From Rothia nasimurium (GTDB lineage: Bacteria; Actinomycetota; Actinomycetes; Actinomycetales; Micrococcaceae), in assembly GCF_004569295.1 (NCBI RefSeq), contig NZ_SPQC01000001.1:62001-126000 (forward strand): a stretch of DNA of 64,000 nt. The letters are read 5' to 3'. The stretch's first letter is position 1. Every line of letters begins with the position of its first letter. Both the position numbers and the translations under genes were made by a program. Positions 55,971 to 63,467 of this stretch are shown piece after piece. The notes under the pieces were generated by a model. It was not told where the DNA came from. It saw only the letters and a list, made by a program, of their open reading frames with translations, and ran no database searches.

Positions 55971-56007
55971 TAGAGGCAGTGTCAAGCTCGCTAGAGCCTG
56001 GTGCTGT

Positions 56008-56081
56008 GGGGCCTTAGCTCAGCTGGTCAGAGCAGGGGACTCATAATCCCTTGGTCGCGGGTTCAAGCCCCGCAGGCCCTA
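56008..56081 (+). tRNA. tRNA with CAT anticodon, probably tRNA-Ile2 (lysidine type) rather than elongator Met
   Basis: Acceptor GGGGCCT/AGGCCCT (one G-U), D-arm GCTC/GAGC, anticodon loop CTCATAA, T-arm GCGGG-TTCAAGC-CCCGC. The segment ACTCATAATCCCTTGGTCGC resembles tRNA-Ile2, whose C34 is converted to lysidine by TilS. Elongator Met remains possible. No CCA is encoded. Its 3' half overlaps an accessory gene on the other strand, the sign of an integration site. Confidence 0.85.
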
Positions 56082-56439
56082 CCCCAGCTAACACTGGTTC
56101 AGCGTTAGCAACCATTTGATAAGTCGTCCCGTTCGGAATGAATCCGATCGGGGCGACTTTTTTCTTGCCCTTCTCGTCCTCAAAGTAGCTGGGGGAGGGG
56201 ACTCGCTGGTTGGTGAGGGCTTCACCTAGAAGCTCATCTAGTGATAACCCTAGAGTCCCTGCAATAGTCAGTAAATCATCGAAGCTGAAAGCAACTCGTC
56301 CTTTCATCTTGTCCGATAGGCTACCTGAGCTAATAGAGAGGGCATCGGCAAGTTTGGATTGGGGCATCTCTGCCCTAGCGAGAGCGCTCTTTATCTCTCG
56401 AGCAAGTACATGCCTTGAAGTAATCAATGCGTTAGTCAT
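56041..56439 (-). CDS. XRE-family HTH regulator overlapping the tRNA
   Basis: 132 residues. A classical XRE/Cro-CI HTH lies at about 24-72 (AEMPQSKLADALSISSGSLSDKMKGRVAFSFDDLLTIAGTLGLSLDELLG). The C-terminal residues from about 119 (GVGPAGLEPATKGL) are the antisense reading of the tRNA 3' half, and the stop codon lies in the anticodon arm. That tail is therefore supplied by the attachment site. The ATG has TATACT 6 nt upstream and no ribosome-binding site, so it is probably leaderless. It is divergent from a second small HTH gene. Likely the element's repressor. Confidence 0.82.
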   Translation of the reverse strand: MTNALITSRHVLAREIKSALARAEMPQSKLADALSISSGSLSDKMKGRVAFSFDDLLTIAGTLGLSLDELLGEALTNQRVPSPSYFEDEKGKKKVAPIGFIPNGTTYQMVANAEPVLAGVGPAGLEPATKGL

Positions 56440-57882: not shown

Positions 57883-59214
57883 ATGGCTCTTCACCATATC
57901 CAGTGGGCCATCAATCAGGATGTGAATAACGCTGAATACAAGGTGCTGATTCAGCTTGCGAACCTGTGTGACGGCCGAGGTGTCTACGCTGAAGGTCAAA
58001 ACCCTTTGGCGGCTACTACAGGGCTGAAAGAGCGTGCAGTACGCGAAGCTATCAAAAAACTTCGAGCTCTCGACTTGATCCATACAGAGCGCCAAAGCGG
58101 TACTTTTTCCACCGGTCGTGCTCCAGATCTTGTAGTTCTTCACCTTGAGAATGAGAAGTATCTGCTTCCTGGTTATGTTCTAACACCAGGAGAGGCTGAG
58201 GAAATTCGACGTCGCCGTGAGGCTAATGAGACTTTTGATGAGTTTGGTATTTCACCTAGTCACACGCTACCGGCAAAATCTGCCGGTAGCGGTATTGAGC
58301 CTGTGGATAACTTTTCTCGAAAAAACGTTTTGCCTAGTCGCACGCTACCGGCAGAAAATGCCGGTAAGGTAAGACTTACCGGCACGCTACCGCCGGTAGG
58401 GTTACAAGAATCTGCCGGTAGCGCAGAAAGTGCCTTAAAGGGAACCGCGCGCGCGACGCGCGCGGCAAAAGGAAATCTTTTGACTGATCTTAATCAGTCA
58501 ATCAGTCAGTCAGTCACTTCAAGTGCAAGCGCGCGAGAAAAAATGACTGACGGACTGACCGACCGAGAGGCGACCGAGCAAAAAACCTCACCGGCCCGCC
58601 CAGAGCAGCTCACGGCTGGGCTGCCTGCCACGAGCTCAGCTGCGACCAAGCGATCCGAGCACCAGTCGCCGGAGGAAAAATCCCCCATCATCAACGGCGT
58701 CAAGCTCTCAGCCCTGCGTTCCATGCTCGAAGCCAAGCATGGCTTCTCCCTGGGACACATCAACGACGCTGCGCTGGGGCAAATGGTCACCATCGTGATC
58801 TCCCGGGCCTCTGCCCCGGTCCGCTCACCGCTGGCTTTCGCCATCACGGCCATCAGCTCAGAAATCGAAGAACTTCACTCACTGGCTCTGTCCCTGCTGG
58901 AGGCTGAAGCCACCCAGAGCGCGCCCCGAGAGTTTTGCAACACCCACACTCGCGAGTTCACCGGCTCCTGCCCGCTGTGCGCCAAGGAAGCTACCGGCCA
59001 GCTCAAAATCCTCACCCCCGAAAGCTCCGAGTCAGCTCCCGTTGACCGCCAGGCGGGGGTGGCCTTCCGGGAAAGCATCCGAGCCCGCCGTAAGACCAAA
59101 AACGGCTCTCCGGTGAAGAATTCTGCACAGGAACATCCTGGCTTGGGTGGGCGTATACCCCTCAAAAGCCTGCAGGGGCCCCTTAGGCGGCCTGAAAGTC
59201 CCTCTGTGGCATGA
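57883..59214 (+). CDS. Winged-helix replication initiator-like protein
   Basis: 443 residues. N-terminal winged HTH (about 5-90: HIQWAINQDVNNAEYKVLIQLANLCDGRG, TTGLKERAVREAIKKLRALDLI) of the kind found in plasmid and phage replication initiators. A long polar linker (about 100-270) contains the iteron-bearing segment (codons ~128-180). A helical C-terminal domain (about 270-340) follows, then a C-x2-H ... C-x2-C zinc-knuckle (C352, H355, C363, C366) and a basic tail. The linker is low-complexity, as expected if its DNA serves as the origin. It is the main candidate for the element's replication protein. Confidence 0.72.
   Translation: MALHHIQWAINQDVNNAEYKVLIQLANLCDGRGVYAEGQNPLAATTGLKERAVREAIKKLRALDLIHTERQSGTFSTGRAPDLVVLHLENEKYLLPGYVLTPGEAEEIRRRREANETFDEFGISPSHTLPAKSAGSGIEPVDNFSRKNVLPSRTLPAENAGKVRLTGTLPPVGLQESAGSAESALKGTARATRAAKGNLLTDLNQSISQSVTSSASAREKMTDGLTDREATEQKTSPARPEQLTAGLPATSSAATKRSEHQSPEEKSPIINGVKLSALRSMLEAKHGFSLGHINDAALGQMVTIVISRASAPVRSPLAFAITAISSEIEELHSLALSLLEAEATQSAPREFCNTHTREFTGSCPLCAKEATGQLKILTPESSESAPVDRQAGVAFRESIRARRKTKNGSPVKNSAQEHPGLGGRIPLKSLQGPLRRPESPSVA
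58266..58422. repeat. Iteron cluster with a DnaA box inside the initiator gene (candidate origin)
   Basis: Copies of GCTACCGGCA or its complement: 58266-58275, 58281-58290, 58344-58353, 58359-58368 (last two bases differ), 58375-58384 (first bases differ) and 58413-58422. A palindrome CTACCG-C-CGGTAG lies at 58387-58399. The first two form a perfect 10-bp hairpin. A perfect DnaA box (TGTGGATAA, complement of TTATCCACA) lies at 58302-58310, followed by an AT-richer stretch. Repeated TGACTGA/TCAGTCA motifs continue at about 58471-58560. Confidence 0.7.
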
Positions 59215-60052: not shown

Positions 60053-60511
60053 ATGACCACCCGCACCCATACTGAGACCTCGGCTGCGCAGCTCCAGGAC
60101 TCTAGCACTGCGCCCCAACAGCAGAACCTTCACCCCTTTGAGCTAACCGACGAGGAAGTTGCATTGCTGCATGACGCACTTCGCCACGGGAGCCATATGG
60201 TGCCCGTAGCGTCCACTGGTTTGCCGGTGGGGGTATCTGTTCTGCCTCTGCTGGCCTATAGGCACCGGATTTGGGAAGCCATGGGCTTTGAAAGTTTTGA
60301 GGACTATCTGGAGTGCGAGTTTTACGAGCTGGGTTTTACTCCCCGGGGTGCTGCTGTAGAGCCGGCAATTCGCTATTACGCCTCCTATGGGCTGAGTGCT
60401 GCAACTATCAGCGCGATCACCGCCCTGCCACAAGGCCACATCGAACACGTACTTGCCAGCTACGACGGCCGCACATTCACACCCTTACGCCCCTTCAACC
60501 CAACCCGCTAG
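60053..60511 (+). CDS. Element protein sharing a domain with the next gene
   Basis: 152 residues. The segment HRIWEAMGFESFEDYLECEFYELGFTP, then IRYYASYGLSAATISAITALPQGHIEHVL, parallels RVWLSLGYKSWNAYITYEFTGLTLTP and ISYAQAGMSTRAISAVTGLSVGSISRL of the next gene. Both therefore share a G-(Y/F)-x-S-(W/F)-x-x-Y helical module followed by an HTH. This one lacks the longer C-terminal tail. GAAAGGAAAGG precedes the ATG. Probably a DNA-binding accessory protein. Confidence 0.65.
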   Translation: MTTRTHTETSAAQLQDSSTAPQQQNLHPFELTDEEVALLHDALRHGSHMVPVASTGLPVGVSVLPLLAYRHRIWEAMGFESFEDYLECEFYELGFTPRGAAVEPAIRYYASYGLSAATISAITALPQGHIEHVLASYDGRTFTPLRPFNPTR

Positions 60512-60540
60512 CAATAGCAACCACCAGAACTGAGGACACC

Positions 60541-61494
60541 ATGACCGCAACACTCAAACTGCTCGATGACCCAACACCCACCCACCTGCCCGCACCTGAT
60601 GAGGCAATCACCGGGGAATTCGTTACTCTGCTGAGCAAAGAAGAAGCTCGCAAGCTCACCGCAAACCTGCACCAAAATCTAGAAAACGCCCAAGAGCTCA
60701 TCATCGAAGCATTCGAGAAAAGGGTCTGGCTTTCCTTAGGCTACAAGTCCTGGAACGCCTACATCACCTACGAGTTCACCGGCCTGACCCTCACTCCACC
60801 CAAAGAAGACCGGCTTACCGCTGTTATCTCCTACGCTCAGGCCGGTATGAGCACCCGAGCCATCAGCGCCGTCACCGGCCTATCAGTCGGTAGCATCAGC
60901 CGTCTCCAGTCCAAGGCCCGCGAAACCGGTCTACTTGGGCAAGAGCGAGAGAGTGTCGGACTCGATGGAAAAGTGCGTCACTACCGCACAACTGATCCTA
61001 GCGACAAGGCCAATGAGCTAGGCATTGACCTTGATGCAGCTATTCTCGATACCCCGGCCTCTGCCTTCGGTATCGGGGCTCTCAAAGAGAGCAAGCCCAA
61101 GAACACATCTAAGTCCTCGGCACCTGCAAGCAAGCCAACCAAGGACACAGTTGCCAGCAAGGACAAAGATTCAACTGTTCCAAATGGAACAGTTGAAGAG
61201 GGTCCAGCCGATGACCTGCTCAACACCGGGTTTGAAAACATCAGCTACCTCATGGGCCAGCTCACCGAACAAATCCAGAACCTGGTCATGAGCAACAACG
61301 ATAAGAACTTCACAAGTCAGCAGTACCCCTACAGCCTGGTACAAGAGCTGCTGCGCTCCATGGCATCAAGCGCTCACCTGCTCAAGCGTCTGAACCTGGG
61401 CCCGGACTTGCTCGGGGAGCACGAGCAGGTAGCAAGCCAGCTGGAAACAATCGTGACCAACCTGGATGCCGAACTAGAAGCTATTCGCCAGTAA
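60541..61494 (+). CDS. HTH protein with GYxSWxxY module (ParB/plasmid-type regulator-like)
   Basis: 317 residues from ATG 60541. Residues ~28-90 hold EEARKLTANLHQNLENAQELIIEAFEKRVWLSLGYKSW. An HTH (about 100-125: AQAGMSTRAISAVTGLSVGSISRLQSKARE) follows. Next comes VGLDGKVRHYRT, a pattern that ends the DNA-binding part of many actinobacterial plasmid and phage HTH proteins. A Lys/Ser-rich linker (175-215) and a helical C-terminus complete it. It could act in partition, copy control or transfer regulation. An extended frame upstream overlaps the preceding gene and is not used. Confidence 0.7.
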   Translation: MTATLKLLDDPTPTHLPAPDEAITGEFVTLLSKEEARKLTANLHQNLENAQELIIEAFEKRVWLSLGYKSWNAYITYEFTGLTLTPPKEDRLTAVISYAQAGMSTRAISAVTGLSVGSISRLQSKARETGLLGQERESVGLDGKVRHYRTTDPSDKANELGIDLDAAILDTPASAFGIGALKESKPKNTSKSSAPASKPTKDTVASKDKDSTVPNGTVEEGPADDLLNTGFENISYLMGQLTEQIQNLVMSNNDKNFTSQQYPYSLVQELLRSMASSAHLLKRLNLGPDLLGEHEQVASQLETIVTNLDAELEAIRQ

Positions 61495-61650: not shown

Positions 61651-62559
61651 GTGAGCTTTCTCGGTGCCCTAAGACTATCAGAAAAAGCAAAGCACGTGAA
61701 AAGTATCAAAAATCAAACCAGAATCAACCCGGACTCCCGCCCCATGCTGTGGGTAACCGTTCTGCTGGTTTTCATGCTGGGGCTGACCTCCTTCATGGTT
61801 TCCTTCAATGGCCTGCACGACGTCGCTGGCTGGGTTGGGCTCCCCATCTGGATGCGGTGGACGGTTCCCATTTTTATCGACATCGCCATCCTTGCTTACT
61901 CCATGGCCGCTGTTATTCATCGCACGCGTGGGGAGCCGGTAGCGCTGACCTGGGCTACCTTGGCAGTTTTCACGCTGATCTCAGTTATTGCTAATGGGGC
62001 TCACGCGCTGGCTGTGGGGGAGGGGCAGATAGCTCTTCAGTCCTGGATTGGCGCGGCCATTGCTGCGGCGGCCCCCTTGAGCGTTTTTGCCGCAACCGAA
62101 GAGCTCTCCCGGCTGGCCTTTGGCACCGATGAACCGGCCCAGATACAGAGTGCGGCCACGGTGGATGAAGAGCAGATGGCTGTCATCAGGGAGCTGACTT
62201 CATACCAGGAACCTGACCCCATTGAGCACACCGAGCAACAGCTACCGGCAACCATCGAGGAAAACCCAGAAGCCGAGCCCTCGAGCGCTGAACCAGTCAC
62301 CGAGGTGGTAGCCCCAGCTGAGGATGAGCCAGAAGAACTAGTTGAAGTCGCAGTAGCCAGCACAGTCACACAGGCTCATGAGAGCAACGAAGACCCAGAT
62401 TTTGATGTACTGCGGCCCTGGATTCAAGAGCAAATTCAGCAGGGCAAGCGCATTACCGGGGCCAAAGCAGGGGAACTCATCGGCAAGTCCTCCCGCACCG
62501 GCCTCAATAAAATCAACGCCCTACGCCAGAGCGAACCGGCCCTGTTCACCGGCGAATAA
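61651..62559 (+). CDS. DUF2637 membrane protein (Spd-like) of actinobacterial integrative elements
   Basis: About 302 residues if GTG 61651 is used; ATG 61744 (MLWVT) would remove 31. Four TM helices occur in the N-terminal half (LWVTVLLVFMLGLTSFMVSF; PIFIDIAILAYSMAAVI; TLAVFTLISVIANGAHAL; WIGAAIAAAAPLSVFAATEE). This is the DUF2637 pattern, which occurs in spread and transfer genes of actinomycete conjugative elements. The C-terminal half is a soluble Glu/Val/Ala/Pro-rich linker (about 170-250) followed by a small helical domain (VLRPWIQEQIQQGKRITGAKAGELIGKSSRTGLNKINALR) resembling an HTH. It supports classification as a conjugative-type element. Confidence 0.75.
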   Translation: MSFLGALRLSEKAKHVKSIKNQTRINPDSRPMLWVTVLLVFMLGLTSFMVSFNGLHDVAGWVGLPIWMRWTVPIFIDIAILAYSMAAVIHRTRGEPVALTWATLAVFTLISVIANGAHALAVGEGQIALQSWIGAAIAAAAPLSVFAATEELSRLAFGTDEPAQIQSAATVDEEQMAVIRELTSYQEPDPIEHTEQQLPATIEENPEAEPSSAEPVTEVVAPAEDEPEELVEVAVASTVTQAHESNEDPDFDVLRPWIQEQIQQGKRITGAKAGELIGKSSRTGLNKINALRQSEPALFTGE

Positions 62560-62606: not shown

Positions 62607-63467
62607 ATGAGTCAGAGCATCACCACAGACCAATGGACAAGTGACCGCATCAGCGCCTGGGAAAAAACCCGCGATAGTATCGCCCGCACCCTGGGCTACC
62701 ACCACCGCGACAGCATCGATGATGTGCACCAGGAAGTCTTTTTGGCTGCCACCAAGTCAATGCACAGCTTTGACCCGACACTGGGGAACTTCAACCAGTG
62801 GATCAGCGGGGTTGCCAATAAGCAGGCGGCAAACTTCTTGAAGAAGACCTACCGGAACTACCTGCTGGCAGAAGAAGCCATCAGCGTTGCCCAGGCCTCC
62901 AATAGCTACATGCACACCACGGAAGCAGACCACGCCGATGAGGTCATTGCTCAGCTTGATACCTTGGTGCGGGTATCACGGGTACTGAAAATTGTGGAGG
63001 GCACATTTGATGAGCGGCTCTACCTGCGGTCTATTGCTTTGATTCGTGACTTTGATGGTGATTATGCGGTGGCGGCCCGACGTCTGGGGGTGGAGGTGGC
63101 GGCTCTACGTGAATCTCACCGGCAGATGATGGAGCTGGCTCAGGTCATTGACCGCGCATTAGAGGGGCACTATCTTCGGGCCAAGGCTGGCCTGGCAGGG
63201 GAGGCAGTAACAGTTCGTGAGATTCTGGGATGTTTCCCTGACCCGGATGCTGGTGAGATTGACCGTACTTGGATGCGCGCGGTTCCGCTGGCGGTAATGA
63301 GTGCAGGGGCCTTTGCTGTGGAGCGTGCCGAACTGGTGGCTAAAGTTTCACAGCTTACTGGTTACTCTCTGGTATCTGCCCGCCACATTATTGCCCGCTG
63401 TGAAAGGCTTTGCGTTGTGGCTAGGGCTGTCCTTGAATCAGGGGAGGCTCTACATGCAGATGGGTAA
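62607..63467 (+). CDS. Sigma-70-like (region 2/4) protein of the element
   Basis: 286 residues. Residues ~35-80 (DSIDDVHQEVFLAATKSMHSFDPTLGNFNQWISGVANKQAANFLKKTYR) match sigma region 2 of ECF-like factors, including the core-binding DDVHQEVF and a -10-recognition-type helix. Around 145-175 a region 4-like HTH (YAVAARRLGVEVAALRESHRQMM) is seen, then an extra ~110-residue helical domain not found in ordinary ECF factors. It may direct transcription of element genes outside the window. The last codons run into the spacer before the peptidase gene. Confidence 0.65.
   Translation: MSQSITTDQWTSDRISAWEKTRDSIARTLGYHHRDSIDDVHQEVFLAATKSMHSFDPTLGNFNQWISGVANKQAANFLKKTYRNYLLAEEAISVAQASNSYMHTTEADHADEVIAQLDTLVRVSRVLKIVEGTFDERLYLRSIALIRDFDGDYAVAARRLGVEVAALRESHRQMMELAQVIDRALEGHYLRAKAGLAGEAVTVREILGCFPDPDAGEIDRTWMRAVPLAVMSAGAFAVERAELVAKVSQLTGYSLVSARHIIARCERLCVVARAVLESGEALHADG

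Follow-up and report, generated by a model that had tools for sequence, protein, structure and literature searches.

A candidate replication origin within the initiator gene of an apparently integrated actinobacterial element

Positions 58262-58570 of the window, the 64-kb stretch of DNA analyzed here (positions 62001-126000 of contig C39 in a 2.69-Mb Rothia genome), contain a candidate replication origin that forms part of the coding sequence for its own initiator. From the sequence, we consider it highly likely that this segment acts as an origin together with host DnaA and with opening of an AT-rich region. A genuine origin embedded in the initiator gene is very probable, and its best reading is an arrangement of the phage lambda O type with an added DnaA box. 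The sequence holds a repeat array, conservation of that array at the DNA level, arrays with altered letters in relatives, a DnaA box, an AT peak, an attachment-site repeat and an empty integration site. These features lead us to infer that the sites are bound and opened, that helicase is loaded and that the element excises and replicates autonomously; the steps might run as follows. The N-terminal domain of the initiator would bind 19-20-bp palindromic iterons in the linker-encoding part of its gene, probably as a dimer, and host DnaA would occupy the box between iterons 1 and 2. Initiator and DnaA would jointly open the AT-rich stretch just downstream, where either the initiator's C-terminal part or host factors would load the helicase. 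Once excised from the tRNA-Met gene by its integrase, the element would be copied as a circle and not lost.

Repeats and protein domains of the rep gene

The replication initiator (rep) gene contains the following features:

57883..59214, + strand: rep gene containing the candidate origin; ORF of 443 aa, open throughout, with PHROG profile matches
58269..58287, unstranded: iteron 1, interrupted palindrome of 19 bp, with no differences in the closest relative
58302..58310, - strand: perfect DnaA box, TGTGGATAA (TTATCCACA on the - strand), between iterons 1 and 2
58347..58365, unstranded: iteron 2, 19-bp interrupted palindrome (palindrome analysis)
58378..58397, unstranded: iteron 3, interrupted palindrome of 20 bp (one mismatch in the arms), 20 bp in the three nearest relatives too
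58413..58419, - strand: iteron 4, half-site only (exact-site search)
58445..58465, unstranded: alternating C/G palindrome (palindrome analysis)
58467..58506, unstranded: candidate unwinding region, the 40 bp with the highest AT content in the gene (70%, gene mean 44%)
58480..58501, unstranded: 22-bp interrupted palindrome lying partly in the AT-rich stretch and partly beside it, a hairpin in the single-stranded DNA fold
58494..58516, + strand: direct tract of the tetranucleotides TCAG/TCAA (period-4 score p=0.002, synonymous shuffle)
58541..58566, unstranded: arm inverted relative to the TCAG tract and 81% complementary to it

The initial annotation had counted seven ACCGGCA/TGCCGGT motifs. 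Six are exact, at 58269 (+), 58281 (-), 58347 (+), 58359 (-), 58378 (+) and 58413 (-), spanning 151 bp (58269-58419) with the first lying 386 bases into the gene; the seventh, at 58392-58398, carries one mismatch (CGCCGGT). None of 5000 synonymous-codon shuffles of the gene, in which the protein and the codon set were both held fixed, reached six sites (shuffle mean 0.26, largest 3). The composite pattern TACCGGCA-N5-TGCCGGTA, allowing at most two mismatches, occurs twice in the window, both times in the rep array, against an expectation of 0.02. The perfect DnaA box reported between the motifs was confirmed, and it is the sole perfect box in the 64-kb window. Right after the iterons comes the AT peak at 58467-58506. 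The TGACTGA/TCAGTCA repeats described downstream were also recovered, both as the tract at 58494-58516 and as inverted arms pairing 58494-58519 with 58541-58566. The alternating CG run reached p=0.004 in the window gene; of the 22 homologues, just 6 gave p<0.05.

The iteron-bearing linker comes after an N-terminal part with matches to profiles of phage replication initiators. This part matched phrog_1032 at 8.5e-7 and phrog_391, 'replication initiation O-like', at 5.4e-5; among the seven aligned homologues, six matched phrog_1032 (best 3.5e-15) and five matched phrog_391. The match of the window initiator to Pfam HTH_36 was weak (0.0059; 8e-8 for the best homologue), and the protein fell below the Pfam HTH cut-offs in the Pfam scan. 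At E<=0.1 the same scan returned no match to PF04492 (Phage_rep_O) and no plasmid Rep model, and tblastn gave no plasmid match. One relative (G277) matched 46 phage records, several of them annotated as replication protein O. None of the scanned genes neighboring the initiator matched a helicase-loader profile in Pfam or PHROG; a loader without a profile is possible. AlphaFold models of two sequences were poor, with mean pLDDT of 44 and 58, and structure searches with them were uninformative.

Homologous rep genes and conservation of the array

Searching with the single protein, we found matches at E<=1e-6 in 7 of 35 genomes of the genus. With a cut-off of E<=1e-8, a profile of the seven homologues matched 22 of 345 family genomes, spread over 7 of 32 genera, and an order-level search matched 7 of 396 genomes in 5 of 109 genera, two of these genomes belonging to the window's own genus. 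The array analysis covered 22 genes from 18 of the 22 matching family genomes; G003 (broken gene), G020, G167 and G203 (fragments) and the second hits of G026 and G029 were left out. In 17 of the 22 homologues, 0 of 1000 synonymous shuffles reached the top 8-mer cluster of the rep gene. The result was weaker for G235a (9/1000) and not significant for C116 (70/1000), G021 (65/1000), G068 (158/1000) and G091 (1000/1000), the last being a gene in which no array was found.

The arrays of the rep homologues are each located in the linker, and palindromes with arms of at least 7 bp numbered 116 across the 22 genes against 30 expected. With one anchor word per gene chosen by hand from the repeated 7-mers, at least one palindrome of 19 bp was present in 19 of 19 genes with a usable word (C116, G091 and G113 of the 22 were left out). 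Among head-to-head pairs of up to 45 bp, 47 of 73 measured exactly 19 bp despite differing letters; since the choice of register fixes the absolute palindrome length, the result lies in the agreement among genes and not in the number 19 alone. The letters differ between clades, with ACCGGCA in the window and ACCGGAC, ACCGGAA, ACCCGAC, ACCCGCC and GGGCGAC elsewhere, and further words in relatives include AGGCGAC, AGGCGCA, AGGTGCA and ACCGGTC. The C116 paralogue deviates: its palindrome, TGGACATGATGTCCA, is 15 bp long, and perfect DnaA boxes occur four times in the gene. At 11 of 11 loci counted, the iteron words are concentrated in the rep gene, and the genome that hosts the window has four rep genes of this family with three different iteron words. 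For the initial annotation, absence of the repeats from homologous initiator genes would have counted against an origin; instead the repeats are present there, at the same place and in other letters, and their codons are conserved more than the protein would require. A paralogous rep gene on C127 (locus L017, 10421-11634) has the same iteron word and reads in two frames, the break falling in an alternating C/G tract.

A perfect DnaA box is present in 12 of the 22 homologous rep genes and absent from 10. The VDN motifs of the Rep proteins are encoded by exactly TGTGGATAA in 14 of 15 cases, for each of which about 0.04 is expected from codon usage (0.49 x 0.38 x 0.21). The 2.69-Mb genome has 44 perfect DnaA boxes (7 for a reversed control pattern); its four rep genes account for 7 of the 44. 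Four perfect boxes also occur at C38:9457-9829, in the gap between SodA-like and NhaA-like genes. At locus L061, in a genome from another family of the order (G573), a distant rep-like gene has three perfect boxes in its linker.

Codon usage points to selection on the DNA itself. We compared identical residues for which another codon was possible. Between the window and its closest relative, G019, the iteron linker kept the same codon at 46 of 47 such residues, residues 1-126 did so at 59 of 115 and the C-terminal part at 20 of 48; between the window and G026, the counts were 29/31 in the linker, 29/74 in the N-terminal part and 29/62 in the C-terminal part. Fisher tests of linker vs N-terminal codon identity gave p=1e-9 for G019 and p=1e-7 for G026. 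Across all six pairs among four genes, the same-codon fraction was 0.82-0.98 in the linker and 0.39-0.62 in the N-terminal part. Since these codons are kept beyond the need of the protein, the iteron linker is, judged by its codons, under selection as DNA and not only as protein.

The iterons go with one part of the initiator. The window protein and that of G019 agree at 91 of 95 N-terminal residues and share their iterons, with only 51 of 158 residues agreeing in the C-terminal part. Compared with the C116 paralogue, 107 of 155 C-terminal residues agree but only 25 of 87 N-terminal residues do, and the iterons differ. In both informative pairs, then, the iterons track the N-terminal part and not the C-terminal part, an observation on two pairs made without a formal test. 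The pattern fits an N-terminal domain that would bind the iterons and a C-terminal part that would be exchanged independently. We tentatively suggest, as a possibility slightly short of evenly balanced, that the N-terminal domain and the embedded origin downstream of it form one cassette that is both inherited and exchanged as a unit within the initiator gene. In this way, elements that share a cell would acquire iterons with new letters and presumably become compatible, without any change in palindrome length, DnaA box or AT peak. If this is true, diversification resembling that of Inc groups would take place inside a single gene, on integrated elements that have a lambda-type origin plus a DnaA box.

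The integrated element and rival explanations

The rep gene appears to reside in an element integrated at a tRNA-Met gene, with the following neighbors in the window:

56007..56084, + strand: tRNA-Met, left edge of the element
56041..56439, - strand: repressor-like XRE/Cro gene, its coding end running into the tRNA gene (ORF, Pfam)
56047..56082, + strand: attL core, 36 bp, with an exact repeat at the candidate attR on contig C41
56484..56792, + strand: second repressor-like gene (phrog_4583, transcriptional repressor, 4.8e-10)
60313..61494, + strand: HTH protein gene downstream of rep (phrog_29861, unknown function, 4.4e-10); longest reading, start uncertain
61651..62559, + strand: DUF2637 membrane protein gene (PF10935, 1.2e-11; phrog_733 'excisionase', 9.3e-16)
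62607..63467, + strand: sigma-70-like gene of the element (PF04542, 8.4e-8)

The candidate attR adjoins genes matching tyrosine recombinases, and the integrase gene there (locus L028, 8347-9442) reads in two overlapping frames. Because C39 and C41 are separate contigs, their joining is presumed. In two other genomes (G017 and G030) the site is empty: only about 0.2 kb separates tRNA-Met from the gene that, in the window's genome, comes after attR; a terminator-like inverted repeat comes after the tRNA in G017 and likewise after attR in the window's genome. The proposal that the element can excise thus gains support from the 36-bp direct repeat, the integrase gene and the two empty sites. Present-day excision may fail, given that the integrase gene reads in two frames and the element is spread over separate contigs. 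The tRNA-Met site is an apparent hot spot in other Rothia genomes: about 7.6 kb separates copies of the tRNA end in G018 and about 6.2 kb those in G028, and G019 has three copies over two contigs. Genes like the repressor-like gene at 56041-56439 sit beside tRNAs in several relatives.

A similar setting recurs among relatives. At 22 of 27 rep loci a tRNA lies 0.6-4.4 kb upstream on the same strand (7 Met, 7 Lys, 7 Asn and 1 Thr), the rep starts of G003, G180 and G166 having been placed by hand and being approximate; no tRNA was found upstream in the piece examined for C72, G091, G277, G113 and G486. A VirD4-like gene occurs near the rep relatives of both G026 and the host genome's own C127, and a TrwC relaxase occurs in G026. 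Conjugation genes of these VirD4-like and TrwC kinds were absent from the examined part of the window's element, and no FtsK/SpoIIIE-type transfer gene was found among the scanned products of this element, which is split over contigs and partly covered. No phage structural gene was recognized among its scanned products. Contig C39 continues beyond the window to 132930 with further genes. Among them, the element carries a gene for a large surface protein resembling adhesins (locus L016, 11008-14184; ~66007 in window coordinates), which matched antigen I/II and aggregation-substance models below their cut-offs and an SspB-type domain above. A related adhesin gene is present in G019.

Operators are typically interrupted palindromes, and two repressor-like genes lie beside rep, so the palindromes might instead be operators through which the initiator or either repressor controls transcription of rep and the genes downstream, with no origin involved. 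We regard this as unlikely: the palindromes begin 386 bases inside the gene, away from the promoter, in the company of a perfect DnaA box and an AT peak, and their letters track the N-terminal part of an O-like protein in the two pairs examined. Autoregulation by the palindromes alongside an origin role is possible. The HTH gene downstream of rep, together with the involvement that iteron arrays can also have in incompatibility, would suit a partition or incompatibility (parS-like) site bound by the protein of 60313-61494. To this we assign a very slim chance, given that the array lies inside rep at all 11 loci counted and that the iteron letters seem to track the N-terminal part of Rep and not the neighborhood.

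Two further readings place the function of the repeats in the mRNA or in the protein. The first palindrome could form an 11-bp stem, and single-strand folding gave z-scores of -7.7 and -7.1 (DNA parameters), as would be expected if the inverted repeats were mRNA hairpins governing translation or stability. The isolated half-sites, and a length that stays at 19 bp as the letters change, instead fit a protein that binds DNA as a dimer, and a role in mRNA gives the DnaA box and the AT peak nothing to do; this explanation is highly improbable. The array might, least credibly of all, be made of repeats of a fast-changing, low-complexity protein linker that have no function in DNA. In-frame protein repeats do exist in some relatives (G076, G180), but protein-preserving shuffles fail to reproduce the arrays, and functionless linker repeats are already contradicted by the synonymous-site result (46/47 vs 59/115 codons kept).

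Comparison with known systems

The initiator-embedded origin is closest to that of phage lambda. In the passages of PMC5043065 and PMC7466680 that describe it, ori-lambda lies in the O gene, with 19-bp inverted-repeat iterons said to bind O dimers and a 40-bp AT-rich region alongside. When the lambda O gene was analyzed as a control, its AT peak (80% AT) started at base 436, right after the iterons, and it contained no perfect DnaA box. In the 8-mer test, lambda O itself gave a weak result (p=0.016), with a top word other than the iteron, and a rep gene from an Arthrobacter phage did not reach significance (p=0.066). The comparison with lambda O drawn by the initial annotation holds for the layout and fails in one respect, the DnaA box. 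The candidate origin of the window, like ori-lambda as described, lies inside its initiator gene and has iterons that are interrupted palindromes of about 19 bp (19, 19 and 20 bp plus a half-site in the window), followed by an AT-rich stretch. The window gene differs in its perfect DnaA box, in giving no Phage_rep_O match, in having no recognized P-like loader and in sitting in a tRNA-integrated actinobacterial element.

In Bacillus phage SPP1, the account in PMC6316719 places oriL in gene 38 (gp38), where direct repeats accompany an AT-rich element for unwinding; gp39 serves as a separate helicase loader. Compared by description only, SPP1 resembles the window in having repeats for origin binding within an initiator gene and an AT-rich element, and is set apart by the direct orientation of its repeats and by its separate loader. 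The iteron plasmids P1, F, R6K and pSC101 combine DnaA sites, an AT-rich region and iterons that are mostly direct repeats binding monomers, as outlined in PMC5043065. The window likewise pairs iterons with a DnaA site and an AT-rich region; its iterons, however, are head-to-head palindromes inside coding sequence, and neither a direct-repeat array nor a plasmid Rep family of the kind described was found.

Actinobacterial integrative and conjugative elements (AICEs), as portrayed in the relevant parts of PMC3218068, are tRNA-integrated and have initiators of the RepSA, RepAM or Prim-Pol type, and transfer of pSAM2 is described there as needing autonomous replication. The survey in that source screened 15 other families, including Phage_rep_O, and reports one additional element, of Rep_2 type. 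Like an AICE, the window's element is tRNA-integrated and actinobacterial, with a replication initiator and an integrase. Its initiator appears to lie outside the three AICE types, having matched neither PF12307 nor PF09250 in the Pfam scan, and the rep relatives on G026 and C127 are near VirD4-like or TrwC genes, not only FtsK-type transfer genes. For two mycobacteriophage RepA genes, an origin upstream of or within the gene is suggested in the portion of PMC7157519 that concerns them.

An origin inside an initiator gene is thus of an already known kind. We found no description of this rep family in the open-licence literature, and a family with changing iteron letters looks new. What appears new is the combination of lambda-like palindromic iterons, a DnaA box, integrated actinobacterial elements and letters that change with the N-terminal domain. 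If the proposed origin is real, a family of actinobacterial integrated elements would replicate by means of phage-type initiators whose genes contain the origin, which would set them apart from the three AICE initiator types. Since the letters vary and the geometry is constant, the family offers a natural series for how an initiator domain reads its origin, and it would inform whether origin specificity allows related elements to share one cell.
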